Source of the DNA: Aliiroseovarius sp. F20344
GTDB taxonomy: Bacteria > Pseudomonadota > Alphaproteobacteria > Rhodobacterales > Rhodobacteraceae
Reading direction: 5' to 3'
Assembly (NCBI RefSeq): GCF_023016155.1
Contig: NZ_JALKBG010000008.1
Coordinates: forward strand, 932,501 to 996,500
DNA: 64,000 nucleotides
The notes under the pieces were generated by a model. The model searched no databases. It worked only from the letters and a program-made list of their open reading frames with translations, and had not been told where the DNA came from. Numbering within the stretch: position 1 is the first letter of the stretch; each line of letters starts with the position of its first letter. The translations under genes and the position numbers were made by a program. Positions 11,832-61,937 of this stretch are shown piece by piece.

Positions 11832-11925
11832 AACTGCGTTGCTTTGATGGGGCCAATGCTTCGACAATTCCTGATTGCGTGTCGGTTTCGCTTTATACTG
11901 CTCTGGCAAGGGGGTATGCGAAGCT

Positions 11926-46809: not shown

Positions 46810-49800
46810 TTAGTAGTCGCGTTCATAGTAGATCCCGATCCCGGTATCCCCATCTGACCCCAAAGTGCCCCGCGCAGTCAGGGACGGCGTGATTGTCAGG
46901 TTCAAATTAACCTCGGCTTTGCCTTCAGCCCCAACAGTGACGTCCGTGTAGATGTTTTCCGAGATGTATTTGCCCGCCCGAACCGACGCAGCACCGGTTT
47001 CATCCGTCGTCACATCCAAATCATCCAACGCAAAATTGTTGCGCAGTTTGCCCAGTACGCCTTCGCCGCCTTTGCCCGCCAAGGTGCGGACCGCCGCTGC
47101 AAGGCGTAAAGCCTGAATGGCTGAGATCTGGGTGATGTCTTTGCCAAACAGCAAACGTGCCAGCACCTCGTCCTCTGGCAAGGCCGGGGATGAGGTGAAG
47201 CTGATCTCGGGCGATGAGGCTGGACCATCTACGCCGATATACACATCGGCGTCTTCAGCGCGGGCCTCGGCCAAGAAATGCAGATACGGATTGAAGTTGC
47301 CCTGCAGGCTTACATCCCCCTCGGTCAGGGTCAGGCGCTTGCCCAGAATGTCCAAACGGCCCCGGATCAGGTTAAACTCGCCCTGAGGGATCACGTTTGC
47401 ACTGTTGCCAGTGACGCGCAGTGCACCGCCAAGCTCTGCGTCCAGACCACGGCCCCGCACGAAGATCTGTCCGGGTGCGCTGAGCGTGATGTCGAGCGGG
47501 TAGGGGCGCCCGGGCGCTGCCGAGGCAGGTGGGACGATAAGCCCTGCGAACTTCCGTGTTTGACGCACCGATGCAGGTTCCCCCACATGGGCCAGCCCTT
47601 CCATCACGGGCAGGGTGCCTGCGGTGGTTTCCGGGACGCGAATTTCGGTGCGACCAAGGTTTAACGCCGCGCGCAGTGTTGCGCCGCCTTGTAGGGGGCC
47701 TTGTAACCCAGCGGTGCCGTTCATGGTGGTTTCAAACAGCTCTCCATCCGTTAGGCGAAGCTGATCCAGAAGGATGTCCAGATTTGCCTGCATCGGTGGG
47801 GCCAGCCCGATCGTACCTGTGGTTGAGACACGCCCACCCGCCGCGATCGAGCTTTGGATGTCCAGCGTGGCTTGGCCGCCTGACAGCGACACTTGTCCGC
47901 TGTTGATGTCGATGGATTGCTTCAAACGCGGCAGCGCGACGCGCGCATTCTGCGTGGCGATTGTCCCGCTCACCGAAGCCAGGGCCAAAGGCCCACGGAG
48001 TGTAAGGTCGTAGCTTGCCGTTCCGGTGGCGAGACGCGGTTTGATGGCCGTGTTCGCAAGCGCCAATGGGGCTGAGCCTGACAAGTCAAGATCCGCCTGC
48101 GATGCATCGGATTTCACAGACCCGGTTACCCGCGCGTTCACGCCTGCCGGGCCCGTTGCGTTAAGCGACAGACGCCAATCGTCACCGTCCAGCTGTGCTT
48201 CACCCTCGGCTTGGGCCGGACCCGACATGCCCTCTGCAAGTAGCCCAACATCAGTAAGGCGTGATTGGAATGCAATGCGCGTGCTGCCGTTCGAAGGCAG
48301 ACCTTCGGCATTTAAGTCCAATGCAGTGCTACGGAAGGACAAACGATCCAGAAGCACGGGCGCTTTGTCCTCCTCACGATGAGCAGCCAGCGAATAGGTG
48401 CTGGCGCCACGCAGTATCGCGTCAACTTGGGCGATGCCGGTGCCAATAGACTGTCCAGAGCCGTTTACGTCCATCGTGAACGCGCCGTGTTCAGGCTGCA
48501 TCTGGCCCTTTGCCTCAAAGGTTAGAGCCCCCGAAACTGGGCGTTTGGCAAGTCCACGATATGGGGCAAGCGATCCGATTTGCCCTTGGGCCGATCCCTC
48601 AACGTGATTGACCTGTCCGTCGGCCAATTTGATCAGTGCCGCAGCGTTGATGTTGGCGTCTCCGGGGGCGGTCATATCCGCATCCAACTGCCAGTCATCG
48701 CCTGTCTGCCGGGCTGTCGCGATCAGTTTAGCAGGCCCGCGCAAGGACGCATCGACCGCACTTGCGTCGGGAAGGTCCAAAGTAATCTTGGCGACCGAGG
48801 CATCGGTTTTCAGGTCCGCGGTTGCTGAAAGCTTTGCCTTCTCGGTGCTTAGATCAAACAGCGCGATCCGCGTGCCGTTGGTGTCTCTGATCGCTTCAAC
48901 GGCCAGCTTGCTTTGCCCGCCGATCAGCTGATCAAGCTCGGGTTGGTTCACACCGATACCTGAGCCGTCACCGTTCAGGCGGATGTCAAACGCCCCACCC
49001 AAGAGGTTGCTTTCGCCTTCTACATCCAAACCCACTTCGCCGGTCAAAGCGGCGCCGATTACGCCGGAGAACCGCGACAGGTCACGGGCAGACAGGCGCA
49101 ATCCATCGCTGCGCGCGATGATCCCGTCGGCGAAATCAGACAGGCTGAGCGCGCCAGTTAGGTCATAGTCCGTACCAGTAAGTTTCAGATCTGACAGGGC
49201 GAGCTTTTCATTATCTTGCCAATCAAACTGAACCTGTCCCAACACGTCAGATCCAACCGCTGCGGCCAGCTCCGGGCTTTGGGGGAGCACCCCAGCCACA
49301 TCAAACCCGACACGGCCATCAATCTGCGCAGGTGCCCCAGCTTTTCCGGCGCGCAGCACGCCCGAGCCATTCAGATTGGCAGCCTGAACTGTAAGATCCT
49401 CGCGCGTTAGGTCTTTCAAATTGGCGGTTGCGATCCACTGATCGCCAGTGCTGGCGTCAAAATCAACTTTCAGATCAACGGATGACACTTGCGTGCGATC
49501 ACCAGCGATTGGCAGATGTACCAGCCCGCCATCCTGGGACGCAATCTTCCCTTCAACGGCGACACGTTCAGGCCAACCCGCAGGGGACAGGACCAGATTG
49601 CCCTGAATATCCATGGAGGCAGACTGCAGCGAGAGAGCATCGATCCGGGTGGACCCATCAGCCTGTTGAACTGCACGCGCAGTCAGATCGACGGTCTCGC
49701 CAAAGAAACCGTGATAGTCGGGGTGGAGCAGGGCGGTGATATCGCCCGATAGATCGAGCGCGTATTGCCGTTCGGTAGCTGTTGTGGGTGTCGTGCCTTC

Positions 49801-50598
49801 AGTTTCTGTGCGTTCAAGAAGTGCGACTTTACCGGTCAGCCGATCCTGACCTGCGGTCGCTAAGGCGATGTCAGCTGTGAAGTCTGACAGGGGCCCTGTG
49901 CCCTCGACCGTCAGCCCCATCGAAGGTCTGTCTGGGATGCCCAACAGGTTTGCGGCAATCCCGTCAGCGGCCTCTTGCAAAGACAAGGACATCGACAAGA
50001 CCCGTTCGACATTGTCATAGTTTCCCGACATGCTCAGATCGCCTTTGGGACCGTCTAACCGCTTGATTTGCAGATCCGCTTCCCCTTTGCCCGAGGCCAA
50101 AGAGGCAGAGCCTTCAAGCGATATGGTGGCGGCCGCCCCGATGACAGTTTCGCCCAAGATAACGCGTTTGGCCCGAATGACGCCGATATTCAAAGAGACC
50201 GGAAGTTCGGGCAGAGAAAACTCGGTCGCTTCCGGGCTGGGCAGGCCGGGTTCTGGAATGGGGCGGCGCAGCAGATTGATCTCGTCCGCTTCCAACGCAT
50301 CGATTTTCACATTGCCGGTTAACAGCGCGCTGCGAGTCCATGTGAGCGTCAGGCCCCGCATGCTCAGCCAAATGCCCTCACCATCGGCAATGGTGATTTC
50401 GTCCACGGTTGCTTTCGAATTGAACGCGCCCTGAAATCCTGTGATCCGGATGTCGCGCCCGGTATCTGACAGGTTGTCTTCAAGAAAAGCTTGCAAGTAG
50501 CCGCGATCATCCTCGGATGTGGGGCTTGCGGATTGTGCCAAAGTTGCGACGGGAAGGAGAACAAGCACGATAAGCGCGAAGAATACACGTTGAATCAT
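46810..50598 (-). CDS. tamB: Translocation and assembly module protein TamB
   Basis: AsmA-like inner-membrane-anchored protein of 1262 residues. An N-terminal signal anchor (V-F-F-A-L-I-V-L-V-L-L-P) is followed by about a thousand residues of repeated beta strands and the conserved C-terminal DUF490 domain, ending in I-Y-Y-E-R-D-Y. Within it are D-I-T-L-S-A-P-G-Q-I-F-V-R-G-R-G-L-D-A-E and F-N-L-I-R-G-R-L-D-I, well conserved in TamB. It spans the periplasm and works with TamA; roles in autotransporter assembly and phospholipid transport are reported for the family. It starts two bases after the tamA stop. Confidence 0.95.
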   Translation of the reverse strand: MIQRVFFALIVLVLLPVATLAQSASPTSEDDRGYLQAFLEDNLSDTGRDIRITGFQGAFNSKATVDEITIADGEGIWLSMRGLTLTWTRSALLTGNVKIDALEADEINLLRRPIPEPGLPSPEATEFSLPELPVSLNIGVIRAKRVILGETVIGAAATISLEGSASLASGKGEADLQIKRLDGPKGDLSMSGNYDNVERVLSMSLSLQEAADGIAANLLGIPDRPSMGLTVEGTGPLSDFTADIALATAGQDRLTGKVALLERTETEGTTPTTATERQYALDLSGDITALLHPDYHGFFGETVDLTARAVQQADGSTRIDALSLQSASMDIQGNLVLSPAGWPERVAVEGKIASQDGGLVHLPIAGDRTQVSSVDLKVDFDASTGDQWIATANLKDLTREDLTVQAANLNGSGVLRAGKAGAPAQIDGRVGFDVAGVLPQSPELAAAVGSDVLGQVQFDWQDNEKLALSDLKLTGTDYDLTGALSLSDFADGIIARSDGLRLSARDLSRFSGVIGAALTGEVGLDVEGESNLLGGAFDIRLNGDGSGIGVNQPELDQLIGGQSKLAVEAIRDTNGTRIALFDLSTEKAKLSATADLKTDASVAKITLDLPDASAVDASLRGPAKLIATARQTGDDWQLDADMTAPGDANINAAALIKLADGQVNHVEGSAQGQIGSLAPYRGLAKRPVSGALTFEAKGQMQPEHGAFTMDVNGSGQSIGTGIAQVDAILRGASTYSLAAHREEDKAPVLLDRLSFRSTALDLNAEGLPSNGSTRIAFQSRLTDVGLLAEGMSGPAQAEGEAQLDGDDWRLSLNATGPAGVNARVTGSVKSDASQADLDLSGSAPLALANTAIKPRLATGTASYDLTLRGPLALASVSGTIATQNARVALPRLKQSIDINSGQVSLSGGQATLDIQSSIAAGGRVSTTGTIGLAPPMQANLDILLDQLRLTDGELFETTMNGTAGLQGPLQGGATLRAALNLGRTEIRVPETTAGTLPVMEGLAHVGEPASVRQTRKFAGLIVPPASAAPGRPYPLDITLSAPGQIFVRGRGLDAELGGALRVTGNSANVIPQGEFNLIRGRLDILGKRLTLTEGDVSLQGNFNPYLHFLAEARAEDADVYIGVDGPASSPEISFTSSPALPEDEVLARLLFGKDITQISAIQALRLAAAVRTLAGKGGEGVLGKLRNNFALDDLDVTTDETGAASVRAGKYISENIYTDVTVGAEGKAEVNLNLTITPSLTARGTLGSDGDTGIGIYYERDY

Positions 50599-50600
50599 GA

Positions 50601-52409
50601 TCAGAACGCCTGCCCGATACCAAGGTAGATCTGTATTCCATCGCCCGTGTCACCAGAAATCGGACCGGCCACATCCAAACGCAGTGGGCCAATCGGGGTT
50701 TTGTACCTTAACCCCAGCCCAGCCCCGGCATGCCAGCCCCCTTCACCAGCAAAAAGGCTGTCATCGCTGACATGCCCTGCATCTGCAAAGGCAACTAGGC
50801 CAATCGTGTCGGTGATTGTCGCCCGCAGTTCTGTCGACAGCGCCAGATAGGACTGCGCACCCCTTAGATCACCATTCCCAACCGGAATGCCCAAGGATTG
50901 ATAGGGTTGTCCACGTACCGAGTTCCCGCCACCCGAAAAAAACAGGTACTCCGGCGGGATGTCTTTGACATCGTCGGAATAGACAGTTCCGGCCTGCACC
51001 CGTCCAGCAACGACAAACCGATCACCTGTATCAAGTGCGCCATACGCGCGTGCATCCACAAATGCGCGCGCGCCGCTGCCACCATCATTGAGAGATAAGA
51101 ACGGCGTCACCTCGGCGCGGACAAAGCTGCCTGAGGTCGCGTCCAACAGATCATTGCGCCGATCCCACGTCAGACCAAGGGGCAGGGTCAGATGAAAGAA
51201 CTCACGGTCTCCGAACACGTCAGTTGTGTCCGAGTAATGAACGCCCACGCCAATCTCTCCGGTCAGTGTTTCTGAAAAAATCCGGGTCATCCCAACGCCC
51301 AGATCCACATTGCGCGAGATATAGGCCGGTTCATCTTCATAAGCGGCTGTGGCGAAGCCAAAGGCGGTTGTGTCAGGTCCGAAGGTTGCTGGCTGTTCCA
51401 AACGTGCGCCCAGACGATAGTCGATCCCACCGTGTTGCCCGCCAATGCCCGTTACTTCGCCATCCACACGGAAACGCTCGGCCCCTCCAAATAAGTTGCG
51501 ATGCATCCAGAACGCAGATACGCCGACGCCTTCAAGCGATGAAAGCTCTGCGCCGACGCCAAACCGTCTTGGTTTTTCATCGGCAAGTGCCAGCCCCACA
51601 TCAAGTGTGTTGTCCGGGTTCAGCGCGTCAGCCTCTTTCAGGGCAACGGATGAAAACGCTCCGGTACGACGCAGACGATTTGCGACAACCTCAAGCGCGT
51701 CGGGCGAGAATGTCGTCCCAGTGGGGAAGCCGGCGATCCGCGCAATACGATCAGATCGCACCGCGCTTGGCGTAGTTTGCGTCATTCGTCCAAAGAACGC
51801 CTTTGGGCCGGGCGAAAACTTCAAATCAGCGGACAATTGGCGGCGATTGTGGTCTGCGGTGATTTTTTGGCCGGTTAAGTTGGCTTTCGCGTGCCCTGCT
51901 TGTCGCCATGCAAGATGTGCAGCATCTGCGGCTGCTTGGATTTCTGTGCTTTTTGCTGCGGCACCGGATTTGAACCCGTCCGGCAGGGTGGTGCCGGGCG
52001 CAAGAGGAGCGACCCGTGCTTGACCAAAAGTGAAAGCGGGTCCCGGATCGACCGACACAGTGACCGTGTTGATCTGCTTGGGCAGGTTAAAAACCGGGAT
52101 CAATCCAGCCTCGCGCCCATCGACCTTCACGCTGACCACGCCACCATAATAGCCGTTCGCATACAGAATCTCGGTCAGGCGACCATATTCGGCAAGGGCG
52201 GCTGCCATCACGTCGCGCGGGTCCGTTTCACCGTCATTTTTAGCGGTTTGGACCAAAGACGCAGATTCAATGGCTGATTTCAGGTCGTCATTTAATCCTT
52301 GAACGGTGATCTCGACAGTCTCAAGCGCAAGCGCAGTCTGACCGCACACAGCCAGTGCTGTTGATAGGTAAATCCGTCGCCAATGCGGCGCCAAACTTGT
52401 CTTTCCCAC
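50601..52409 (-). CDS. tamA: Autotransporter assembly outer-membrane protein TamA
   Basis: Omp85-family barrel, 602 residues from the preferred start. The signal peptide ends near A-L-A-L-E-T. Three POTRA domains (about 28-260) precede a 16-strand barrel with the Omp85 motif G-G-x-N-S-V-R-G near residue 490 and final G-L-G-L-R-Y-K-T-P-I-G-P-L-R-L-D. GTG 52409 is chosen because AAGGA lies about nine bases upstream and it gives a normal signal peptide; a TTG at 52445 is also in frame. It forms an operon with tamB. Confidence 0.93.
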   Translation of the reverse strand: MGKTSLAPHWRRIYLSTALAVCGQTALALETVEITVQGLNDDLKSAIESASLVQTAKNDGETDPRDVMAAALAEYGRLTEILYANGYYGGVVSVKVDGREAGLIPVFNLPKQINTVTVSVDPGPAFTFGQARVAPLAPGTTLPDGFKSGAAAKSTEIQAAADAAHLAWRQAGHAKANLTGQKITADHNRRQLSADLKFSPGPKAFFGRMTQTTPSAVRSDRIARIAGFPTGTTFSPDALEVVANRLRRTGAFSSVALKEADALNPDNTLDVGLALADEKPRRFGVGAELSSLEGVGVSAFWMHRNLFGGAERFRVDGEVTGIGGQHGGIDYRLGARLEQPATFGPDTTAFGFATAAYEDEPAYISRNVDLGVGMTRIFSETLTGEIGVGVHYSDTTDVFGDREFFHLTLPLGLTWDRRNDLLDATSGSFVRAEVTPFLSLNDGGSGARAFVDARAYGALDTGDRFVVAGRVQAGTVYSDDVKDIPPEYLFFSGGGNSVRGQPYQSLGIPVGNGDLRGAQSYLALSTELRATITDTIGLVAFADAGHVSDDSLFAGEGGWHAGAGLGLRYKTPIGPLRLDVAGPISGDTGDGIQIYLGIGQAF

Positions 52410-52523
52410 ACCCAGGTTCCTTGTGAGCAATAAAGCTTCTAACAATCAATGAAAGCCTACCCGGTCGCTGGGTTGGGCACCACCGGAAACGCGTAGTCGG
52501 CAGCTTTCCGCCTTAAGCCTATG

Positions 52524-53294
52524 TTAGGTGCGCAAGGGGGCGTCGAACAAGCGACCGAATTGCGGCATCCTATCGTCAATTCCTGCCAGTCGCAGCATGT
52601 GCCATGTCAGGGCGATGTTGCTGGACAAGACCGGGATCCCCAGTTGGGCTTCCAGCATTGGGATCACTGACATGCAGCGCAGATTTGTGCAGGAGATGAT
52701 CAGTGCTTTACAGGGGGCATTTTCGGGTGCAGCTTTGGCCACACGTATGCTGGCGTCATAGATCGCGTCCTTGGTTATTCTGGCGACCACCCGATCATCG
52801 CTTTCCTCAAATGATCCGCCCGAAGTGATCGTGAAACCGGCGCTTTCAAGCTTCTCGCGCATGCGGTGCGAAACCTCGGGCACATAGGGGGTGACAAAGC
52901 CAAGGTTTCCAGCGCCAAGACTGTGGCCCGCTGCGATCATGGCCGCCAAGGGATCTGAGACCTTAACTCCGGGGCGCACGCTTTGAATGGCTTCGGCAAC
53001 CTTGTCTGATCCGATCACGGTCGAGGCCGACGTGCAGCCATAGCCAATCACGTCAAAATCGAGCGCGGGGGGCAGAAGCCGGGTTGAAGCAGGAAGATCA
53101 TCGAGCATTTGGATAAGCGTGTCCGGACGAATCTCCGTAACCATCGGAATGCGGCTGTGATAGCGCGCGACGCCCTCGATATCGGTGAGTTGGGCGAACT
53201 CCGCCTCTAGTGTCTCATCCGTTTCCAGAACGATCATGCCCAGATTGGCCCGCGTTCCAATGCCACCGTCTGTATCGAAGTCGAGTTTTAGCAT
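52524..53294 (-). CDS. Asp/Glu racemase-superfamily enzyme (maleate isomerase / EutA-like)
   Basis: A 256-residue enzyme of the maleate isomerase/arylmalonate decarboxylase branch of the Asp/Glu racemase superfamily. Two catalytic Cys are in place: C87 in G-Y-G-C-T-S-A and C202 in I-I-S-C-T-N-L-R. EutA proteins of ectoine-utilisation clusters are of this family. It is the last gene of the operon with M24, diaminopropionate ammonia-lyase and M20 genes (seven-base gap to M24), so it probably isomerises or racemises an intermediate of that pathway. A simple maleate isomerase role is less likely in this setting. Confidence 0.82.
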   Translation of the reverse strand: MLKLDFDTDGGIGTRANLGMIVLETDETLEAEFAQLTDIEGVARYHSRIPMVTEIRPDTLIQMLDDLPASTRLLPPALDFDVIGYGCTSASTVIGSDKVAEAIQSVRPGVKVSDPLAAMIAAGHSLGAGNLGFVTPYVPEVSHRMREKLESAGFTITSGGSFEESDDRVVARITKDAIYDASIRVAKAAPENAPCKALIISCTNLRCMSVIPMLEAQLGIPVLSSNIALTWHMLRLAGIDDRMPQFGRLFDAPLRT

Positions 53295-53301
53295 TTTTCC
53301 C

Positions 53302-54477
53302 TCAGATTACCGGAAGCTCGGCAGGCGCGCGGCGAGTCAGAAGTTTCGCCCCAGATGCACGCACAACAATGTTTTCTTCGTGGACCATAATGCGCCCGTC
53401 ACCATAAGAAAGCGACGGTTCAAGCGTCAGCACCATGTTCTCTTCTATGACAGTATCATCAAATGCAGCATGAGAGGGCCATTCGGTCAGCTGCATGCCC
53501 AGCCCATGCCCAAGTCGACCCACATCGCCACCCTGATCGTCCATCTCGGCGATGACAGATTGCATGGCCTGAAACAGCTCGGCGCATGTGTTGCCCGGGC
53601 GGGCGGCTTCGATCCCAGCCTCGGTGGCGCGCCAGAGAGTGTCATAAGCCCGTTTCGAAAGATCATCCGCCAGACCAATCGCCCAGTTGCGATCAAAGTC
53701 GCAGTAATAGCCATCCCACGTGGCACCCGTGTCCAGCATAAAGATATCCCCCTTCTGCAAAGGGCGCGGCGATGGCGGAGAGATCACGTCGTGATATCCC
53801 CCCTGATCAGCGCCGCCAACCAGATAGGGCACATCATCCGCCCCGTGATACATCGCTTCACGCCGAAAGAGCCGGAAGAGCTCTTCAAAGGGCAGTCCTT
53901 CACGCGCCAGTTTCGGGACTTCGGAAAACACGCGCGATCCGATGGCGCAGATATGAGAGAGCTTCTCGATTTCAGCCTCAGATTTCACCATACGCAAGCT
54001 GCGCACCAGCCCGGTGGCATCTTCAACTTCAAGGCCGGGAAGCCCCTCCATCAGGCGTTCATAATCCCCCAACGGCATGCGCAGCCCGGTTTCATGGCCT
54101 TTCAGAACGCCCAGACGCCCGCTGGAACTGGCCAGCGGTGACAGGAGGTCGGTCAGCAAACTAATGCCGTCATCAGTTGGGGCAGGGGCGCTCCAGGTGC
54201 GGACGTCGTCAATCCAAGTCTGACGCATAAGCGCCGCCCCGATTTCGGGGATCACGGCGATGGGTTTGCCCTGCGTGGGGATAAACAGGAACCACGGACG
54301 CGTGGGGCTTTGCCAAAAGAGCGTGTGGAAGCCGCTGAAATACCGGACCTCAGGCTCGGTCATTAACAGAATCCCGTCCAATCCCTGATCCGCCATTAGG
54401 GCTTGCGCATTGCGCGTGCGGGCTTTGAACTCCGACGCCGGGAAACCGCGTGTTGGAGCTTGGAGCACCTCAGACAT
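53302..54477 (-). CDS. M24 family metallopeptidase (Xaa-Pro peptidase / ectoine hydrolase-like)
   Basis: Creatinase/aminopeptidase-fold hydrolase, 391 residues: N-terminal creatinase domain (about 15-160) with Y-F-S-G-F-H, and C-terminal pita-bread domain. All five metal ligands are visible: the two Asp in L-D-T-G-A and C-D-F-D-R, the His in L-G-H-G-L-G, and the Glu of L-T-L-E-P and of V-H-E-E-N. It overlaps the ammonia-lyase gene by eight bases and precedes the racemase-family gene. Relatives include prolidase, creatinase and EutD/DoeA, which opens the ectoine ring. In this operon an amide- or amidine-hydrolysing step is more plausible than peptide cleavage. Confidence 0.85.
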   Translation of the reverse strand: MSEVLQAPTRGFPASEFKARTRNAQALMADQGLDGILLMTEPEVRYFSGFHTLFWQSPTRPWFLFIPTQGKPIAVIPEIGAALMRQTWIDDVRTWSAPAPTDDGISLLTDLLSPLASSSGRLGVLKGHETGLRMPLGDYERLMEGLPGLEVEDATGLVRSLRMVKSEAEIEKLSHICAIGSRVFSEVPKLAREGLPFEELFRLFRREAMYHGADDVPYLVGGADQGGYHDVISPPSPRPLQKGDIFMLDTGATWDGYYCDFDRNWAIGLADDLSKRAYDTLWRATEAGIEAARPGNTCAELFQAMQSVIAEMDDQGGDVGRLGHGLGMQLTEWPSHAAFDDTVIEENMVLTLEPSLSYGDGRIMVHEENIVVRASGAKLLTRRAPAELPVI

Positions 54478-55663
54478 GATTTGCCCCAGCCATGATCGCC
54501 TTAAAGATATCTGGGTCCGTTACGCCTTCTGATCCGATCAGCAACACGCGCGCGTTTCCGTCCAATCCCAATGCGTCTGACAGCACAGGATCTTGCCTTG
54601 CTGCGATCAACGCCGCCAATCCAGCGACAGCGCTTTCGCCAGCTTCGACGGCTATATCGCCAGTCTCACTATTGGCCAAAAGACGCACCGAGGGGGCGAC
54701 AATGCTGTCCGGAATGGTCAGAAAGTCGCTGCTTTCCTCTGCCAGAATTTCCCACGCCATTTCAGAGGGTTCGCCGCAGGACAGTCCAGCCATAATGGTC
54801 TCTTCCGCAATCTCGAATGTTGTGGGCTTCCCCTTCTTGGCGCTGTCGAACAAACACGCTGCCAACTCGGGCTCCACGATCACAACACGCGGGGCAGCAT
54901 CTTTGTAAAACTGCCGAAGACCCGCCGCGACCGAGGCCGCCAACCCCCCAACGCCACCTTGCAAGAAGACATGCGTTGGCGGCTTATCCAGAGTATTGCA
55001 GGCTTCGCGTGTCATCACGCAGTACCCTGCCATCACATCCCGCGGCGGCTCGGTATACCCCTCCCACGAGGTGTCCGAGACGACAAACCAGCCGTTTTCT
55101 TCGGCTTCAGACTTTGCCAGCAAAACGGACGCGTCGTAATCCCCTTCGATCCGGATGACATCTGCCCCCAGATCCCGCATAGCGCTGGCTCGGCCTTCGC
55201 TGACTTCGGCATGAATATAGATGCGGCACGGGGCACCAAAGCGCTGACAACCCCAAGCCAGGGATCGCCCGTGATTGCCATCGGTCGCTGAGACCAATGT
55301 GATCCCGGCGCAAGCCTCGCGATGTTCGCCATTGCGGATTTCTTCCAAGCTAACTGTGCGACCCAATTGGGCGCTCAGCTCACGCTGCAAAACCCGCAGC
55401 GCGGCATAGGACCCGCCAAGCGCCTTGAAGCTGCCCAGCCCGAAACGCGGGCCTTCATGCTTATAGTCGATCCGCGCCACGTTCAGGTCCTTCGCCAGAC
55501 CGGACAGTGACACAAGCGGGGTAGGGGCATAGCCTTCCCAAGCCATGATCTCGGCGCAGGCATTGTCGAAATCCTGTTCCGAAAGCACGCGAAACGCCGC
55601 TTGGGCGGGTTTTGGGCGTCCAGCGGTGTGCCGCAGTTTGGCCGCGGTGAATACGTCGTACAT
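54470..55663 (-). CDS. dpaL: Diaminopropionate ammonia-lyase
   Basis: Fold-type II PLP enzyme converting 2,3-diaminopropionate to pyruvate and two ammonia, 397 residues, the normal length for E. coli YgeX. The PLP Lys is K80 in G-L-G-S-F-K-A-L-G-G, and S-A-T-D-G-N-H-G-R-S-L-A-W shows the Asp and Asn characteristic of this subfamily rather than of threonine deaminase. A glycine-rich phosphate loop V-F-L-Q-G-G-V-G-G-L-A follows. ATG 55663 has AAAGGA upstream and lies two bases after the M20 stop. In E. coli ygeX also neighbours an M20 gene (ygeY), which supports a functional pairing. Confidence 0.92.
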   Translation of the reverse strand: MYDVFTAAKLRHTAGRPKPAQAAFRVLSEQDFDNACAEIMAWEGYAPTPLVSLSGLAKDLNVARIDYKHEGPRFGLGSFKALGGSYAALRVLQRELSAQLGRTVSLEEIRNGEHREACAGITLVSATDGNHGRSLAWGCQRFGAPCRIYIHAEVSEGRASAMRDLGADVIRIEGDYDASVLLAKSEAEENGWFVVSDTSWEGYTEPPRDVMAGYCVMTREACNTLDKPPTHVFLQGGVGGLAASVAAGLRQFYKDAAPRVVIVEPELAACLFDSAKKGKPTTFEIAEETIMAGLSCGEPSEMAWEILAEESSDFLTIPDSIVAPSVRLLANSETGDIAVEAGESAVAGLAALIAARQDPVLSDALGLDGNARVLLIGSEGVTDPDIFKAIMAGANHV

Positions 55664-55665
55664 GG

Positions 55666-56799
55666 TTAGTCCTTTCGCGGGGGCAGGCGATCCTGCACCA
55701 GTTTTGTCCAAAACTCAGCCCCAATGGGCAGAAGGTCGTCGTTAAAGTCGTAATCCGAAGAATGCAGAGGTTGGCCGTGGGGCCCGTCCGTTCCGTTGCC
55801 CATCAACAGAAAACAACCGGGAATGGCAGCTGTGAAATGGGCGAAGTCTTCGGAGAAGCTCATCGGTTGCCGATCCGGGATCACGGCGAGCTTTGCGGCG
55901 GTGGCCGCACGCACAACGGCTTCGGTCGGAGCATCTGCGTTGATCGTTTCAATGAACTCGGTCCGAAACGATACCGTCGCGGTGATCCCATGTGCTTTGG
56001 CGATGCCATCGGTGATTTGCTGCATCAGCATCTCGACCTTTTCCCGATCCTCGGGCGCGCGAGCCCTGACATCACCTTTCAGGATGGCTTGCCCCGGCAG
56101 CACATTGCGCTGCCCATCGGTCAGGAATTCAGTCACTGAAACGACCACACCTGCGCCGGGGGCCAGTTTGCGCGCCACAATCGTTTGCAGGGCCAACACC
56201 AGTTCTGCCCCCACGGTGATCGCGTCCACCCCAACCTGTGGCATAGAAGCATGCCCGCCCTGACCATGCACCGTAATTTCAAACAGGCTTTCACTGCTGC
56301 AAACCAAGCCCTTACGCGTCGACACCTCGCCCAATGGAGCGCCGGGCAGGTTGTGGATGGCATAGACTTCCTCCATCGGGAACCGGTCTAGAACGCCTTC
56401 GTCAATCATGGCCCGGGCACCCAGCCCGTGTTCTTCGTTGGGTTGGAAGAGGAAGACTACAGTGCCATCAAAGCCGCCTTCCGAGGCGAGTTTTTCTGCT
56501 GCCCCAAGGAGCATCGTCATATGCCCATCATGCCCACAGGCGTGCATGACGCCCGGGTTTTGCGACACATAATCGTGTGATGAGGCCTCGATGATCGGCA
56601 ACGCATCCATATCAGCCCGAAGCCCAATGGCGCGGTTGCTGGTGCCTTTTCGCAATATGCCAACGACGCCAACGCCCTCATGCACCTCGATCCCCAGATC
56701 ACGCAGATGTTTGGCGACAAGGGTCTTCGTGTTCTCTTCCTGAAACCCCAGCTCGGGCGCGCGATGGAAGCGTTGCCGCATCTTGGTCAAATGATCCAA
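55666..56799 (-). CDS. M20 family amidohydrolase (hippurate hydrolase-like)
   Basis: Metal-dependent deacylase of the M20/HipO-AbgA group, about 377 residues. Motifs are P-E-L-G-F-Q-E at the start, L-R-A-D-M-D-A-L-P, H-A-C-G-H-D-G-H with metal-binding Cys/His, Q-P-N-E-E and the dimerisation-domain G-G-H-A-S-M-P. The C-terminus holds S-E-D-F-A and M-G-N-G-T. I take TTG 56799, with AGGA eight bases upstream; ATG 56832 lacks an RBS and ATG 56781 would trim the first helix. It is the first gene of a four-gene operon and likely removes an acyl group to release the ammonia-lyase substrate. The acyl group is unknown. Confidence 0.85.
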   Translation of the reverse strand: MDHLTKMRQRFHRAPELGFQEENTKTLVAKHLRDLGIEVHEGVGVVGILRKGTSNRAIGLRADMDALPIIEASSHDYVSQNPGVMHACGHDGHMTMLLGAAEKLASEGGFDGTVVFLFQPNEEHGLGARAMIDEGVLDRFPMEEVYAIHNLPGAPLGEVSTRKGLVCSSESLFEITVHGQGGHASMPQVGVDAITVGAELVLALQTIVARKLAPGAGVVVSVTEFLTDGQRNVLPGQAILKGDVRARAPEDREKVEMLMQQITDGIAKAHGITATVSFRTEFIETINADAPTEAVVRAATAAKLAVIPDRQPMSFSEDFAHFTAAIPGCFLLMGNGTDGPHGQPLHSSDYDFNDDLLPIGAEFWTKLVQDRLPPRKD

Positions 56800-56926
56800 T
56801 TTTCCAATCCTTTTGACTCGTGTTGAATACATATTAGAAGGTCAATCAGGCTGGCACGCATCGAAAAAATCGTGCCTCATTACTAAAAAAATTGCAAAAT
56901 CGCGTTTGCAGGAGGTAATTGAGAGC

Positions 56927-57376
56927 ATGGACGACAAAGACCTACATATACTGCGCTTGGTGCAAGGCAATGCCCGCCTGACTGCTGAAGCGATCAGTGA
57001 AGCGGTGGGCCTTTCCCCCGCAGCGGTTCAAAAAAGGCTGAAGAAGCTGCGTGAGACAGGCGTGATCGAACGAGAAATTGCAGTCCTGTCCGCCACCAAA
57101 CTGGGGCGGGAATTAACGGTGGTTGTCGAAGTCATTCTGGAACGAGAAAACCGCCAGCAACTGGATGCGTTCAAGCGCAAAATGCGCAACGCCCCATCGG
57201 TGCAGCAATGTTATTATACGACCGGCGAAGCAGATTTTCTTCTGATCCTGAACGTGTGCGACATCAAAGAATATGAGGCGTTCACGCAAGCCTATTTCTT
57301 TGACGAATCGAACATCAGCCGGTTCAAAACTTCGATCGTCATGGATCGGGTGAAAAGCTCTTTGGACGTTCTGTGA
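56927..57376 (+). CDS. Lrp/AsnC family transcriptional regulator
   Basis: A 149-residue feast/famine regulator. The N-terminal winged HTH (M-D-D-K-D-L-H-I-L-R-L through E-R-E-I) has A-V-G-L-S-P-A-A-V-Q-K-R in the recognition region, and the RAM ligand-binding domain follows from about residue 60 (T-T-G-E-A-D-F-L-L-I). AGGAGG is 11 bases before ATG 56927; the earlier in-frame ATG at 56813 lies in the divergent gene. It is divergent from the M20-dpaL operon across about 127 bases and probably controls it in response to an amino acid such as 2,3-diaminopropionate (inference). A strong terminator follows. Confidence 0.92.
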   Translation: MDDKDLHILRLVQGNARLTAEAISEAVGLSPAAVQKRLKKLRETGVIEREIAVLSATKLGRELTVVVEVILERENRQQLDAFKRKMRNAPSVQQCYYTTGEADFLLILNVCDIKEYEAFTQAYFFDESNISRFKTSIVMDRVKSSLDVL

Positions 57377-57469
57377 GTCCGCGTGCAAATTTGAGGAAGA
57401 AACGACCAACGGCAGATTTCAAGGAAACTCTTCGGTTCAGAAGGTCTGAATCTGCATAAGTAGCCGCCA

Positions 57470-57511
57470 AAAACAAGAAAAGCGCTCCAGAAGGAGCGCT
57501 TTTCTTGTTTT
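57470..57511. terminator. Bidirectional Rho-independent terminator (19-bp perfect stem)
   Basis: A 19-base arm (57470-57488) with core AAGCGCTCC, loop AGAA and an exactly complementary arm (57493-57511), A-rich on the left and T-rich on the right, gives U-tracts on both strands. It separates the Lrp gene (+) from tRNA-Asn (-), which converge on it. Confidence 0.93.
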
Positions 57512-57532
57512 ATCAATCCCTTAGGGGATTTA

Positions 57533-57607
57533 TGGCTCCGGCGGTAGGGATCGAACCTACGACCAATTGATTAACAGTCAACTGCTCTACCGCTGAGCTA
57601 CGCCGGA
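57533..57607 (-). tRNA. tRNA-Asn (GTT)
   Basis: 75 bases including an encoded CCA. Acceptor TCCGGCG pairs with CGCCGGA, discriminator G. The D-arm is G-C-T-C...G-A-G-C, the anticodon loop CTGTTAA gives GTT, and the T-arm has GGTTCGATCC. It is transcribed towards the bidirectional terminator at 57470-57511. Confidence 0.97.
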
Positions 57608-57656
57608 ACATGTGGGGCGATATAGCAAGGGCGATTCAGGGCCGCAAGAGGCGAAA

Positions 57657-58583
57657 TTACTTTTTTTCGTCCGTCATTCGAAAAACGGCATTTGCCTCGA
57701 GCGTTGGGGTCGCGGTGACAATTCCGCGCGCGGCGAGGTCTATCAGATGTGCGAAGACGTTACGCTCGGCGGCGGGGATGAGGGCATCCGGTGTTTCATT
57801 GTAGATTGCGCTGGTGAGGGTCGGGACTGTTGCCTCGTCCAGCTGTGCCAGAGTGGCTTGAATTTCTGCCTCGCGAGTCAGGCGGTGGTTGATCAGCCAG
57901 TCCAGACGCTCTTTCGGGCGGTCGATGGGGTCACCATGTGCGGGGTAGTAGGCGCGGTCTGAGCGTGAGGCCAGTTTTCGGCAAGAGGCCATGAACGCGG
58001 TCAGATCCCCATCCGGCGGAGAGACCAGAGAGCTGGCCCATTCCATGATGTGATCGCCAGTAAATACAACGCCTTGTGCTGCAAAGCTCAGGTGATTAGC
58101 AAAGTGGCCTGGTGTCCATATTGCCTCGACCTCCATACCGCCAGCCATGAACTTTTCACCGTCGGCAAGACAGATGTCACATGTGAATTCAGCGTCCACA
58201 CCTTCACCGCCTGACGACAAGCCGCGCGCCACAAGATCGCGCATGACACTGCTGCGCCCGGACAAAGCATCGCCGTAGGCCAAGATCGGAGCGCCGGTTT
58301 CTTTGGACAGCACAGAGGCAAGAGGGGAGTGGTCCAAATGGGCATGTGTCACCAGAATCTGCGATATCCGCTCGTTTGGTCCAAGTCCGTTTAAGATTGA
58401 TGCCAAATGGTTCTTGTCGGCCGGGCCGGGGTCAATCACCGCGACGTCACCTTCACCCAGAACGAAGGTATTGGTGCCCCAATAGGTCATCGGCGAGGGG
58501 TTTGGAGCGATTATTCGGCGGATGCCGGGCTCCATTTGCTGCATAATGCCTGCAGGCGGGCGATTTGCGGGGTCCGATGCCAT
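57657..58583 (-). CDS. MBL-fold metallo-hydrolase (LACTB2-like)
   Basis: Metallo-beta-lactamase-fold hydrolase, 308 residues. Metal ligands are in T-H-A-H-L-D-H-S near residue 80, T-P-G-H-F-A-N-H near 160, F-T-G-D-H and Y-P-A-H-G-D near 215. A C-terminal winged-helix-like region (about 230-300) follows, as in LACTB2/RNase-type or hydroxyacylglutathione hydrolase-like members. AAGGAG precedes the ATG by eight bases. It is divergent from the histidine kinase gene across 87 bases. The substrate is unknown; nuclease or thioesterase activity are both possible. Confidence 0.88.
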   Translation of the reverse strand: MASDPANRPPAGIMQQMEPGIRRIIAPNPSPMTYWGTNTFVLGEGDVAVIDPGPADKNHLASILNGLGPNERISQILVTHAHLDHSPLASVLSKETGAPILAYGDALSGRSSVMRDLVARGLSSGGEGVDAEFTCDICLADGEKFMAGGMEVEAIWTPGHFANHLSFAAQGVVFTGDHIMEWASSLVSPPDGDLTAFMASCRKLASRSDRAYYPAHGDPIDRPKERLDWLINHRLTREAEIQATLAQLDEATVPTLTSAIYNETPDALIPAAERNVFAHLIDLAARGIVTATPTLEANAVFRMTDEKK

Positions 58584-58670
58584 GTTAGACGCTCCTTGGC
58601 TGCCGTTTGGTCATTCCTGACGCCGCACCCTTCGCTTGGCAAGCGCGTCGCCGCGTCATAGGGTCAGGCC

Positions 58671-60023
58671 ATGACGCAAAACAACCGCTCGAACAATGCA
58701 AACTGGCGCGATTTTCAATGGCTGAAGCAGTTTATGCCACGCGGGCTTTATGGCCGTGCGGCGCTGATTCTTCTGGCCCCGATTATCACGCTGCAACTTG
58801 TGGTGTCCGTGGTGTTTATTCAACGGCATTTCAACAGGATAACCGTTCAGATGACCGAATCTGTGGTCGCCGAAATCGCGCTTCTTGAGGGCGAGGTGAA
58901 CACGGCCATGTCGCAAGAGATTGCGGTGGAACAAGCCCGACGCATTGCCGCGCCTCTGTCTATGCGCGTGACGCTTCCGGCTGATCCAGTTGCAACGCAA
59001 GTCAGGTTGATGGATTTCACCGGTCCTCGGGTTTTGCGAACCATGCAGGCGGGCTTGCCGGGCCTGTTGGGCGTTGATTTGGAATCCGATCGGGAACGGG
59101 TGACGCTGTCACTTCCCACGCAGTTTGGAGTGATGCAGGTTGATCTTCCACGCCAACGTGTCTCGGCGACCAACCCGCACCAGTTGCTCGTCTTGATGGT
59201 TGTCACCGGGTTCCTGATGACGCTGATTGCCTATCTGTTTCTGCGAAATCAGCTGCGTCCCATCCGTCGCCTTGCCCGTGCGGCCGAGGCCTTCGGGAAG
59301 GGGCAGGTGGTGCCTTACAGGCTGGCAGGGGCAACAGAAGTGCGCGCGGCAGGGAAAGCGTTTTTGGACATGCGGTCACGAATTGATCGCCAGATCGAGC
59401 AACGCACGCTGATGCTGTCAGGCGTCAGCCATGATCTACGAACACCCTTAACGCGGCTCAAACTGGGCCTGTCGATGGTCGAAGACGATGCGCGTGAAGA
59501 TCTGGAGCGCGACGTTGATGATATGGAGCGGCTCGTCGATCGATTTCTGGGTTTTGCTCAGGCTGAAGCGCTGGAGGACGCGCCAGAGTCTGTCGATCCG
59601 ATCGCACTGGTGCATCACCTGGTTGAGAATGCGCAGCGTGCAGGCATGACGGTCGCGCTGGGGGAACTGGCGAACCCTGGTGAGCGTCCCCTTCGGCGTG
59701 CATCGCTTGAGCGTGCGTTGGAAAACCTTCTGGGCAATGCAACGAGATATGGTTCACAGGCGCGGTTTTCTTTGGTCACGGGACGCGGGGATCTGCGGTT
59801 TGTGATCGAGGATGATGGCCCCGGGATAGCGCCTGAGGATCGGGAAGAGGCCTTAAAACCTTTCGCCCGGCTGGATAAATCCCGCAACCAGAACAAGGGC
59901 TCAGGTGTGGGTCTTGGGCTTGCCATTGCCAATGACATCGCCCGCGGCCATGGCGGGCATTTGCGACTGGGTGAAAGCGCCGATCTGGGCGGTTTGAAGG
60001 TCGAGCTTGTTCTTCCGCTTTAA
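58671..60023 (+). CDS. Sensor histidine kinase, EnvZ-like, without adjacent response regulator
   Basis: Transmembrane kinase of 450 residues. TM1 is at about 22-45, a periplasmic sensor domain at 46-160, TM2 near 165-187 and a HAMP domain after that. The HisKA box has G-V-S-H-D-L-R-T-P-L-T-R-L near residue 254, the N box is L-E-N-L-L-G-N-A-T-R-Y-G, G1 E-D-D-G-P-G-I and G2 G-S-G-V-G-L-G-L-A-I-A. The arrangement is that of EnvZ-type kinases, which normally sit next to an OmpR-type regulator. None is seen here: upstream is a divergent MBL gene and downstream an aldolase-like gene. Confidence 0.92.
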   Translation: MTQNNRSNNANWRDFQWLKQFMPRGLYGRAALILLAPIITLQLVVSVVFIQRHFNRITVQMTESVVAEIALLEGEVNTAMSQEIAVEQARRIAAPLSMRVTLPADPVATQVRLMDFTGPRVLRTMQAGLPGLLGVDLESDRERVTLSLPTQFGVMQVDLPRQRVSATNPHQLLVLMVVTGFLMTLIAYLFLRNQLRPIRRLARAAEAFGKGQVVPYRLAGATEVRAAGKAFLDMRSRIDRQIEQRTLMLSGVSHDLRTPLTRLKLGLSMVEDDAREDLERDVDDMERLVDRFLGFAQAEALEDAPESVDPIALVHHLVENAQRAGMTVALGELANPGERPLRRASLERALENLLGNATRYGSQARFSLVTGRGDLRFVIEDDGPGIAPEDREEALKPFARLDKSRNQNKGSGVGLGLAIANDIARGHGGHLRLGESADLGGLKVELVLPL

Positions 60024-60098
60024 TCCGTACTGGTCGCAAACAGGCAAGAAACTGTGCCCCGTGCATTGTCTCCTACGGCTAAATTACAGGAGTTTCCT

Positions 60099-60854
60099 AT
60101 GACGCTGACCACGCCCGTGCCCAACATCGCCCATTGGAATGACCGCGTTGATATGGCGGCCGCCTTTCGCTGGACCGTGCGTCTGAATATGCACGAAGGG
60201 GTGGCGAACCACTTCAGCCTTGCCGTGAATGACAGCGGCACCAAGTTTCTGATGAACCCCAACCAGATGCATTTTGCCCGCATCCGGGCATCAGACCTCT
60301 TGGAAATCGACGCGGACGATCCCACTACTATGGATCGCCCTGACTCGCCGGACCCCACTGCGTGGGGGTTACATGGGGGGGTGCATCGGCATTGCCCACA
60401 CGCGCGCTGCGTGATGCATGTACATTCGATCCACGCAACGGTTTTGGCGTCTTTGGCGGATAGCAATCTGCCACCAATCGATCAGAATTGCGCGACGTTC
60501 TACAATCGCTATGTGATCGACGATGGCTATGGCGGGCTGGCGTTCGAAGATGAAGGCGCGCGCTGTGCCGAGATGCTGACGGATCCGAAGGTCAAGGTGA
60601 TGATCATGGGCAATCACGGCGTGCTGGTGATCGGAGACAGCGTCGCGGATACCTTCAACCGGCTTTACTATTTTGAACGCGCGGCCGAGACCTACATCCG
60701 TGCGCTGCAAACCGGCCAGCCCTTACGCGTGCTATCGGACGAGATTGCGGAGAAAACCGCGAAAGAGCTGGAAGAATACCCCGAACAGGGGGATCGCCAT
60801 CTGTCGGAACTGAGAGCTATTCTGGACGACGAAGGCAGCAACTACGCGAGCTAA
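60099..60854 (+). CDS. Class II aldolase/adducin domain protein
   Basis: A 251-residue protein of the class II aldolase/adducin head-domain family. It has N-H-F-S-L-A near the start, the Zn-ligand motif M-H-V-H-S-I-H-A-T near residue 108 and a late G-N-H-G-V-L-V-I-G with the third His. AGGAG precedes ATG 60099; an upstream in-frame ATG at 60054 is unlikely. It stands 75 bases after the kinase gene. Members act as sugar-phosphate aldolases, epimerases or decarboxylases; the substrate is not evident and no sugar-pathway genes are near. Confidence 0.85.
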   Translation: MTLTTPVPNIAHWNDRVDMAAAFRWTVRLNMHEGVANHFSLAVNDSGTKFLMNPNQMHFARIRASDLLEIDADDPTTMDRPDSPDPTAWGLHGGVHRHCPHARCVMHVHSIHATVLASLADSNLPPIDQNCATFYNRYVIDDGYGGLAFEDEGARCAEMLTDPKVKVMIMGNHGVLVIGDSVADTFNRLYYFERAAETYIRALQTGQPLRVLSDEIAEKTAKELEEYPEQGDRHLSELRAILDDEGSNYAS

Positions 60855-60905
60855 GCGTGTGCTTATGGCCTTCGCCGTTTGCTTTAATTATAAGGTGACC
60901 CAGTC

Positions 60906-61937
60906 CTAATCGACCTTAACCACCATTTTCCCGAAACTCTGACCAAGAAGCAGCTCGTTAAGCGCCTGGGGTGCATTCTCAAGCCCATCGACAACCTGTT
61001 CTTTGTATTTGACCTTTCCCTCGGCCAGCCACCCCGTCATGTCCTTAGCAAACTCTTGGTACGTGCTCAGGGGGAAGCTGTCGAAAATGATGAAGCCTTG
61101 CACCTTCACTTTCATCCTTAGAATCGTGCCCATGATGGCGGGGCCCATATCGGGACCATCGGGAAGACCGGTTAGGTTGTACCATGACACCACACCGCAA
61201 ACGGGCATGCGTGCGAAGGGGTTCAAAAGAGGCAACACACCATAAAGAACCTTGCCACCCACATTTTCGAAATAGACATCGATGCCATCAGGGCAGGCGG
61301 CGGCAAGCTGTTCAGCGAAGTCATCGGCCTTATGATCGATACAGGCGTCAAAGCCCAGATTGTTCACCACATGCGCGCATTTCTCTGCGCCGCCCGCGAT
61401 TCCCACCGTCCGGCAGCCTTTGATTTTTGCAATCTGGCCGACCGTGGCGCCAACTGGGCCTGATGCCGCAGCAACCACTACGGTTTCGCCGGGCTTTGGT
61501 TCGCCAATCTTCAATAATCCAGCGTAAGCAGTGTAGCCGGGCATGCCCAGAATACCCAATGACCATGAGGGGTTAGCGGGTGACGCGCCAAGGTTGATCA
61601 CTTCAGTCCCATCAGAAATTGCGTAATCTTGCCAACCGCTTCCCGCCAGAACGAAGTCACCAGCAGAAAAACCATCAAGATTTGAAGAAATCACTTCTGC
61701 AACGACCTGACCGGTCATCACTTCATCAATTTTCACAGGCTCAGCATAGGATTTCGCATCGTTCATACGTCCGCGCATATATGGGTCGAGCGACAGGAAA
61801 ACCGTGCGCAACAGCATCTCACCATCCTTCGGGGTGGGAACGGGGGTTTCCTCAAGGCGAAGCGTGTTTTTATCCGGAAGCCCATTGGGGCGCTCTGCCA
61901 AGACGATGCGGCGGTTGCTGGATGCGGTTTGTGGCAT
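60906..61937 (-). CDS. NADP-dependent oxidoreductase (CurA/PTGR-like MDR)
   Basis: Zinc-free medium-chain reductase of 343 residues, like E. coli CurA and leukotriene B4 12-hydroxydehydrogenase. It has F-L-S-L-D-P-Y-M-R-G-R-M near residue 48, V-V-A-A-A-S-G-P-V-G-A-T-V-G-Q as NADP-binding loop and D-V-Y-F-E-N-V-G-G near 224. It probably reduces the double bond of enones or aldehydes; the physiological substrate is unknown. AGGAG precedes the ATG. No operon partner: convergent to the aldolase-like gene. Confidence 0.92.
   Translation of the reverse strand: MPQTASSNRRIVLAERPNGLPDKNTLRLEETPVPTPKDGEMLLRTVFLSLDPYMRGRMNDAKSYAEPVKIDEVMTGQVVAEVISSNLDGFSAGDFVLAGSGWQDYAISDGTEVINLGASPANPSWSLGILGMPGYTAYAGLLKIGEPKPGETVVVAAASGPVGATVGQIAKIKGCRTVGIAGGAEKCAHVVNNLGFDACIDHKADDFAEQLAAACPDGIDVYFENVGGKVLYGVLPLLNPFARMPVCGVVSWYNLTGLPDGPDMGPAIMGTILRMKVKVQGFIIFDSFPLSTYQEFAKDMTGWLAEGKVKYKEQVVDGLENAPQALNELLLGQSFGKMVVKVD

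Follow-up and report, generated by a model that had tools for sequence, protein, structure and literature searches.

Two described catabolic systems come close to the locus reported here. In Escherichia coli the M20 enzyme YgeY and the diaminopropionate ammonia-lyase (DAPAL) YgeX together take 3-ureido-2-aminopropionate to pyruvate (PMC12507026), and operons for ectoine breakdown combine a parallel set of enzyme families with the same type of regulator (PMC5924519). The window analyzed here, a 64,000-nucleotide stretch from Aliiroseovarius sp. F20344 (G000:C8:932501-996500, within a 3.36 Mb genome), carries four minus-strand genes in the order M20 amidohydrolase, DAPAL, M24 metallohydrolase and EutA-like enzyme, with a divergent gene for an Lrp/AsnC regulator. 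We propose, at roughly even chances, that this is an Lrp-controlled nitrogen-scavenging operon that unmasks 2,3-diaminopropionate (DAP) and then yields pyruvate and ammonia; in our reading it would add to the eut-like systems a new variant whose substrate is a diaminopropionate osmolyte that is acylated and possibly N-methylated. Among the papers listed in searches of an open-access library, none describes this gene set.

The gene order, the tight coupling of the genes, the recurrence of the set, the intact catalytic motifs and an operator-like site can all be read directly from the DNA. With the DAPAL gene beginning at the ATG at 55663, the three junctions measure +2, -8 and +7 bases, the DAPAL and M24 genes sharing 8 bases, and a check of the open reading frames (ORFs) found every coordinate right in the original prediction of four coupled genes and a divergent regulator. 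The prediction that the lyase is of the true diaminopropionate type was likewise supported. Its score passes the cut-offs of NF006058 (471.6 against 276) and TIGR01747 (284.1 against 274) and lies under that of the narrower TIGR03528 (319.4 against 532.25). The motifs FKALGG and TDGNHGR are present, and Lys96, Asp144 and Asp213 (long-frame numbering) align with Lys77, Asp120 and Asp189 of the E. coli enzyme, for which PMC4000059 lists Lys77 and Asp120 as potentially catalytic. The lysine, the TDGNHGR aspartate and the second aspartate are kept in all 60 distinct rows of type-1 DAPAL, defined as at least 56% identity, and in 7/7 lower-identity rows. On cut-offs and motif, the window lyase is a predicted DAPAL.

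The M24 protein (domains PF00557 and PF01321) keeps the metal ligands D249, D260, H324, E353 and E367, together with Arg60, in 116/116 distinct rows, whereas four EutD proteins over their family cut-off carry other residues at the metal positions; against the EutD/DoeA model TIGR02993 it scores 46.3 where 613 is required. Because the ligands are kept here and missing in those four proteins, we assign it as a predicted metallohydrolase and not a EutD-type amidine opener, and the part of the original prediction in which a EutD-like M24 enzyme opens an amidine ring is disfavored. An AlphaFold model (mean predicted local distance difference test score 87.9, with low confidence at residues 319-325) places Xaa-Pro dipeptidase (Z 38.7) and EutD (38.2) as tied nearest neighbors, followed by creatinase 1CHM (35.5), all at 18-28% identity. 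Arg60-Pro61 aligns with the Arg-Pro of creatinase-type proteins encoded in the loci of relatives. Those creatinase-type genes, present in some other loci, were recognized by eye against the 1CHM alignment, and NCBIfam did not assign the name creatinase to the one that was scanned. Creatine was rejected as a substrate of the window M24, whose metal site differs from that of the creatinase-type proteins.

The remaining two enzymes also fall short of the ectoine families. Placement of the EutA-like protein in the Asp/Glu racemase family is borne out by Cys87, kept in 114/114 distinct rows, and Cys202, kept in 113 with one gap; the protein scores over PF17645 (Amdase, 71.1 against 25.9), just under PF01177 (30.1 against 31) and well under the EutA model TIGR02990 (179.1 against 318). 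Arylmalonate decarboxylase carries one cysteine, and decarboxylation of that type is disfavored for this protein with its two conserved cysteines. The M20 protein (PF01546 and PF07687) passes the broad amidohydrolase model TIGR01891 (299.8 against 153.75) and shows the motif MHACGHDGH in 61/61 rows, 54 of them distinct. Its M20 identity stands as originally predicted, and the contrast drawn on this point with ectoine gene sets needs qualifying, the best NCBIfam match being DoeB2 (NF038260; 328.7 against a cut-off of 550).

The divergent regulator, with Lrp domains over the cut-offs of PF13404 (52.6 against 27) and PF01037 (60.1 against 25), has an operator-like site upstream, in keeping with the original assignment. 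An imperfect palindrome lies in the Lrp-M20 gap of some relatives, and 15 such sites, chosen by eye among the upstream regions of 28 relatives, were combined into a matrix; the window site was excluded, and the other 13 regions were cut short or lacked a clear site. Scanned over both strands of the 64 kb, the matrix placed its top match in the Lrp-M20 gap, at position 56876 (21.6 bits), the next match reaching 18.0. Among test loci the best site lay upstream of M20 in L168 (21.2), L181 (22.3) and, weakly, L163 (14.3), while in L140 it was near the beginning of the M20 gene; in L089 the matrix scan found no site upstream of M20, its best match lying elsewhere.

Recurrence of the set was examined in 295 genomes of the family and in named loci from a wider scan. 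All Fisher tests reported here ignore the relatedness of genomes. Type-1 DAPAL and close M24 relatives (at least 64% identity) occur together in 20 family genomes, DAPAL only in 3, M24 only in 7 and neither in 265 (p = 2.8e-22), and in 17 of the 23 genomes with type-1 DAPAL an M24 gene lies within 5 kb; for lyases dependent on pyridoxal 5'-phosphate (PLP) at 45-55% identity the figure is 3/22 among the rows listed. At looser thresholds M24 is found in 147/295 genomes (E <= 1e-60), DAPAL or DAPAL-like proteins in 150/295 (E <= 1e-40) and EutA-like proteins in 85/149 (E <= 1e-20). The family linkage counts come from 149 listed M24 and 150 listed PLP rows, weaker PLP matches falling beyond the list: 28 M24 rows reach 64% identity, with 16 next to type-1 DAPAL, 4 next to another PLP gene and 8 next to neither, and among the 121 rows below it 88 have another listed PLP gene within 5 kb, 1 has type-1 DAPAL and 32 have none listed. 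A EutA-type gene also accompanies many of the mapped M24-PLP units. The combination of M24, PLP lyase and EutA is thus frequent in the family, and the version with DAPAL is one branch of this theme.

The named loci derive from an M24 profile scan of one genome per species across 84,980 species and comprise the 80 best among at least 519 relatives that were confirmed, mostly Rhodobacterales with some Stappiaceae, Granulosicoccaceae, Thioglobus, SAR116 and a small number of other groups; the closest M24 relatives among them are from Aliiroseovarius (up to 85% identity). Within 6 kb of M24 (8 kb for M20), a EutA-type gene was found in 66 of these loci, DAPAL in 49, the alternative lyase PALP2 in 13, M20 in 45 and Lrp in 43, and all four enzymes occur together in 29/80. 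These shares hold for close relatives only, because the loci were picked by M24 similarity. Neighbors were found by fixed queries (E <= 1e-15), so that other gene types could be missed, and the relatives' genes were called with a simple in-house caller; the 80 loci overlap the family genomes, the sets are not additive, and motif rows were recounted without repeats. Order and linkage recur in Rhodobacterales, Stappiaceae and one Thioglobus-type gammaproteobacterium, and the Granulosicoccaceae among the named loci gave no DAPAL match to the fixed queries. The genes co-occur both in the family and in the named loci, so that the first refuting condition set for the original scheme, rare co-occurrence of the four genes, did not refute it.

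In the mechanism that we propose, M24 and the M20 aminoacylase-type enzyme would take N-linked groups, amide or acyl, off a small carboxylate-bearing precursor and so free DAP, which the PLP lyase would cleave to pyruvate and two molecules of ammonia. Inversion of a stereocenter of the precursor or an intermediate may be the task of the EutA-like enzyme, making both isomers usable, and Lrp would sense substrate or product and switch the operon. There is no transporter in the window operon, and uptake is therefore probably encoded elsewhere. Some relatives have importers of ectoine or betaine type co-located with the set, which makes a zwitterionic, osmolyte-like derivative of DAP the probable precursor. 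The unmasking core is the best-supported part of the scheme first put forward for this locus, and it rests on family logic and motifs; the ring opening is disfavored, and strict dedication to DAP is weakened by loci in which PALP2 takes the place of DAPAL.

These PALP2 partner swaps appear, from the sequences compared, to be the chief result weighing against a strictly DAP-dedicated pathway, and several further observations point the same way. A PALP2-type lyase stands near M24 in 13/80 named loci, 11 of the 13 with M20. A tree of M24 was built by a quick method from the window, L039 (a second M24 locus in the same genome) and 75 of the 80 named loci, 77 rows in all. In it 11 of the 12 PALP2 rows are interspersed with DAPAL rows, and the tree needs 4 changes between DAPAL and PALP2, although many of the relevant forks have 81-93% support, under the tree's starred level. 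In 6 of the 23 genomes the type-1 DAPAL gene lacks an M24 gene within 5 kb, and the fixed queries found no PLP lyase near M24 in 18/80 loci (some at contig ends), no M20 in 35/80 and no EutA-type gene in 14/80. The second M24 of the window's genome lies at L039 in a betaine-type locus without a DAPAL match, and no natural marine osmolyte of acyl-DAP type is known to us. Either two kinds of PLP lyase take one end product, or more than one amino acid is processed through the M24-EutA-M20 unit.

The second of these options leads to an account in which M24, EutA and M20 together handle N-substituted, beta-functional amino acids in general and the PLP enzyme is interchangeable, DAP being one of several end amino acids and a serine/threonine-dehydratase-like enzyme finishing the route elsewhere. 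The PALP2 found beside M24-EutA has Ala in place of the first DAPAL Asp in 30/30 distinct rows, with Lys and the second Asp intact and a SAGNHG motif, and the two PALP2 proteins scanned score just under the DAPAL cut-off (254.8 and 267.3 against 276). The mixing of PALP2 and DAPAL rows on the M24 tree, at forks with 81-89% support, and the 88 of 121 more distant M24 genes that lie within 5 kb of such a PLP gene fit this account too. The branch to which the window belongs nevertheless keeps a full-motif DAPAL closely linked to M24, and we hold the general unit to be possible but rather unlikely. Ordinary peptide scavenging, in which an Xaa-Pro-type dipeptidase, a hippurate/aminoacylase-type amidohydrolase, a lyase and a racemase share a promoter and no single pathway, would suit the best PDB relatives, which are dipeptidases and prolidases for M24 and generic amidohydrolases for M20. 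It sits poorly with the recurrent order and linkage from Rhodobacterales to Stappiaceae and the Thioglobus-type gammaproteobacterium, and with an invariant creatinase-type Arg60 loop that we consider unusual for a general dipeptidase, and it appears very unlikely.

Two further accounts start from the described systems themselves. That the locus is a remodeled ectoine/hydroxyectoine operon, in which EutA, a EutB-like lyase, a EutD-like M24, a EutE-like deacylase and AsnC act on ectoines, draws on the parallel family set, on the closeness of M20 to DoeB2 and on the EhuB-like importer of some relatives (176.3 bits in the one protein scanned, against an EhuB cut-off of 190.9). We rejected it as highly improbable: all four proteins score under the ectoine equivalog cut-offs, M24 has the metal site that the four EutD references lack, the partner genes EutC, DoeD and DoeC (DABA-to-aspartate, DABA being 2,4-diaminobutyrate) found no match among the 11 proteins scanned at 46810-61937, the genome holds a EutD-class gene at another place (576.9 bits, just under the cut-off of 613), and the relatives' importer has Ile/Val where EhuB has a Glu whose role we presume. 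A route working on carbamoyl-DAP (albizziin, 2,3-diureidopropionate), akin to the E. coli uric acid pathway but aerobic, would share with that pathway the pairing of an M20 enzyme with DAPAL, as YgeY with YgeX (PMC12507026). The window M20 is, however, not of carbamoylase type (24.2 against 204 for TIGR01879; 26.6 against 321 for the YgeY model), and separate DAPAL clusters with a carbamoylase-family amidase fit such a route better (402.9 against 204 in L111, with relatives in L110, L113 and L114), so that this account is disfavored and seems very unlikely for the window.

With DAP unmasking kept as the preferred reading, a link to betaine-type genes, absent from the original prediction, is new and sharpens the substrate question. 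In L039 (G000:C6) the second M24 (72% identical to that of the window) is accompanied by a further EutA-like gene (45%), an OpuAC-type binding protein with ATP-binding cassette (ABC) partners (by eye), two PhyH dioxygenases, a GntR-family regulator and an FAD-GcvT (FAD, flavin adenine dinucleotide) dehydrogenase of the dimethylglycine/sarcosine type. In some relatives a locus of this kind is joined to the DAPAL set. The dehydrogenase (at least 70% identity) lies within 8 kb of M24 in 10/80 named loci, 7 of the 10 with DAPAL (L140, L163, L167, L168, L172, L177 and L181), PhyH1 being present in 4/7 of these unions and an EhuB-like importer in 6 of the 7; L089 also shows the union of both halves, and L140 and L096 denote a single stretch. 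Genomes with a dehydrogenase of at least 78% identity have type-1 DAPAL in 4/6, against 23/295 overall (p = 3.9e-4), and 19 of the 23 type-1 DAPAL genomes lack such a dehydrogenase. On the M24 tree the betaine-type rows, except L198, fall in one 23-row branch mixed with DAPAL rows. Beside the union in L096 stand a GbcA-like Rieske protein (134.7 bits, cut-off 670) and SoxB (602.9, over 529.45), and L096:11122-19499 encodes a creatinase-like M24 without metal ligands (M24p) and another EutA-like protein, adjoining SoxB/SoxA/SoxG and the GbcA-like Rieske protein.

An EhuB-like binding protein was found in 7/160 loci searched, 6 of the 7 with DAPAL; in L168 it is encoded at 11891-12727. It has Trp, Trp, Tyr and Arg at EhuB positions Phe24, Tyr60, Phe80 and Arg85 and Ile/Val for Glu21; the EhuB residue types named here agree with the aligned EhuB sequence once an offset of one position is allowed for, and given the functional roles that we take these positions to have, the pattern favors a quaternary-amine carboxylate over a cyclic amidine with a ring NH. 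The binding protein of the OpuAC-type ABC system in L039 (L039:2807-6010) is close to the dimethylsulfoniopropionate (DMSP)-binding RnDmpX (7YLE, E 8e-121) and keeps, by eye, four cage tryptophans and Tyr200 listed in PMC10030565, with Gly for Ala153. In Ruegeria pomeroyi dmpXWV is not co-located with known DMSP catabolic genes (PMC10030565). Despite the RnDmpX-like protein nothing ties the window operon to DMSP, which was rejected as its substrate. Taken together, it is doubtful, though conceivable, that the module forms the central part of a route for an acylated, N-methylated (betaine-like) DAP osmolyte of marine origin, imported by an EhuB-like or OpuAC-type ABC system with an aromatic cage, N-demethylated by a PhyH or Rieske oxygenase and an FAD-GcvT dehydrogenase, freed of its substituents by M24 and M20 and finally cleaved by DAPAL to pyruvate and ammonia; the window's genome would then hold this pathway in two pieces, the window operon and G000:C6:65500-84500. 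For this organism the betaine link is one that we infer, because the window operon is not joined to the betaine-type locus and L039 has no good Lrp site in the matrix scan (best 12.3 bits), a score on which Lrp control of that locus was also rejected.

Two gene starts depend on a choice of codon. The longest DAPAL frame, 54470-55711(-), has a TTG start at 55711, and the ATG adopted is the likely start; the longest Lrp frame, 56813-57376(+), begins with TTG at 56813, and the product of the ATG at 56927 (MDDKDLHIL...) matches the beginnings of relatives' Lrp proteins. The 11 scanned proteins include the module, and its flanks resemble TamB, TamA (below cut-off), a metallo-beta-lactamase-fold protein, a histidine kinase, an aldolase-type protein (PRK07490) and an NADPH-dependent reductase.

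Table 1. Coordinates of the module in the window, with the basis of each assignment
Feature	Position	Strand	Basis
EutA-like two-cysteine enzyme, Asp/Glu racemase superfamily (Cys87, Cys202)	52524..53294	-	ORF, profile scores, conserved cysteines
M24 pita-bread metallohydrolase (predicted)	53302..54477	-	ORF, family scores, metal ligands, AlphaFold model
dpaL, 2,3-diaminopropionate ammonia-lyase (DAPAL; predicted)	54470..55663	-	ORF, family cut-offs, motif residues
M20 aminoacylase/amidohydrolase, nearest named NCBIfam family DoeB2 (under cut-off)	55666..56832	-	ORF, family scores
Predicted Lrp operator, divergent intergenic region	56876..56898	-	Best matrix match in 64 kb
Lrp/AsnC regulator	56927..57376	+	ORF, Pfam domains, start from comparison with relatives such as L040

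Related loci show other arrangements of these families. In the same genome, L205:7432-16338 (G000:C8) forms a second eut-like locus. Besides the EutD-class M24 mentioned above it encodes an M20 of the acetylornithine deacetylase type (465.4 against 412), a protein of the class III aminotransferase type (829.7 against 687) and, judged by eye, a further ABC system of OpuAC type. Type-2 loci with the set PALP2a-M24-EutA, such as L118:2107-12328, occur in other family genomes as well; L118 adds a polyamine-type ABC system (by eye; its binding protein has no NCBIfam match) and a creatinase-type M24 (by eye). A recurrent set of an M19 dipeptidase, a 557-aa protein without a Pfam match, DUF3726 and an Ldh_2 dehydrogenase adjoins M24-EutA units in L076:2732-7079, L059, L060 and L088, and partly in L049, L191 and L192.

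Small osmolytes are a route by which marine bacteria recycle dissolved nitrogen, and the recurrence of a regulated operon whose lyase is of the DAPAL type points to a marine compound containing DAP, one that to our knowledge nobody has measured in the sea. The operon offers a defined genetic handle for finding it. The metal-keeping M24, set against the altered site of EutD, also indicates that family names alone are insufficient for calling eut-like sets ectoine pathways.

Compared with known systems, the module resembles ectoine catabolism (eutABCDE-asnC, doeABCDX) in its superfamilies, namely a EutA-type enzyme, a PLP lyase, an M24 protein, a deacylase and Lrp/AsnC, and, in some relatives, in an EhuB-like importer; it differs in that its lyase is a predicted DAPAL and not EutB, in the retained M24 metal site and in scores that all lie under the equivalog cut-offs. 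With the E. coli reductive uric acid cluster, in which YgeY unmasks DAP and YgeX makes pyruvate (PMC12507026), it shares the M20-DAPAL pair, whereas its M20 belongs to another subfamily and M24, EutA-like and Lrp genes are added; no hydantoinase, carbamoyltransferase or purine enzyme was matched among the 11 proteins scanned at the window locus. The clusters L110-L114 (for example L111:7012-11539) look like an aerobic carbamoyl-diaminopropionate route and resemble the window in pairing DAPAL with an M20-type hydrolase in 4/5, but their DAPAL is 46-53% identical to that of the window, their M20 is of the carbamoylase family (L111 scanned), and their mapped stretches have no such M24 or EutA-like gene, a distant M24 (26%) lying 8 kb off in L111. 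The carbamoylase-family amidase is present in 4/5 of them and a nitrilase-family amidase in 5/5, with a tripartite ATP-independent periplasmic (TRAP) transport system, replaced in L110 by an ABC type (by eye), while L115 is without either amidase. Finally, the window M24 has in common with creatinase and prolidase the pita-bread fold, prolidase-type metal ligands and a creatinase-like Arg-Pro loop, and, unlike the creatinase-type proteins aligned, it combines the metal site with the Arg loop.

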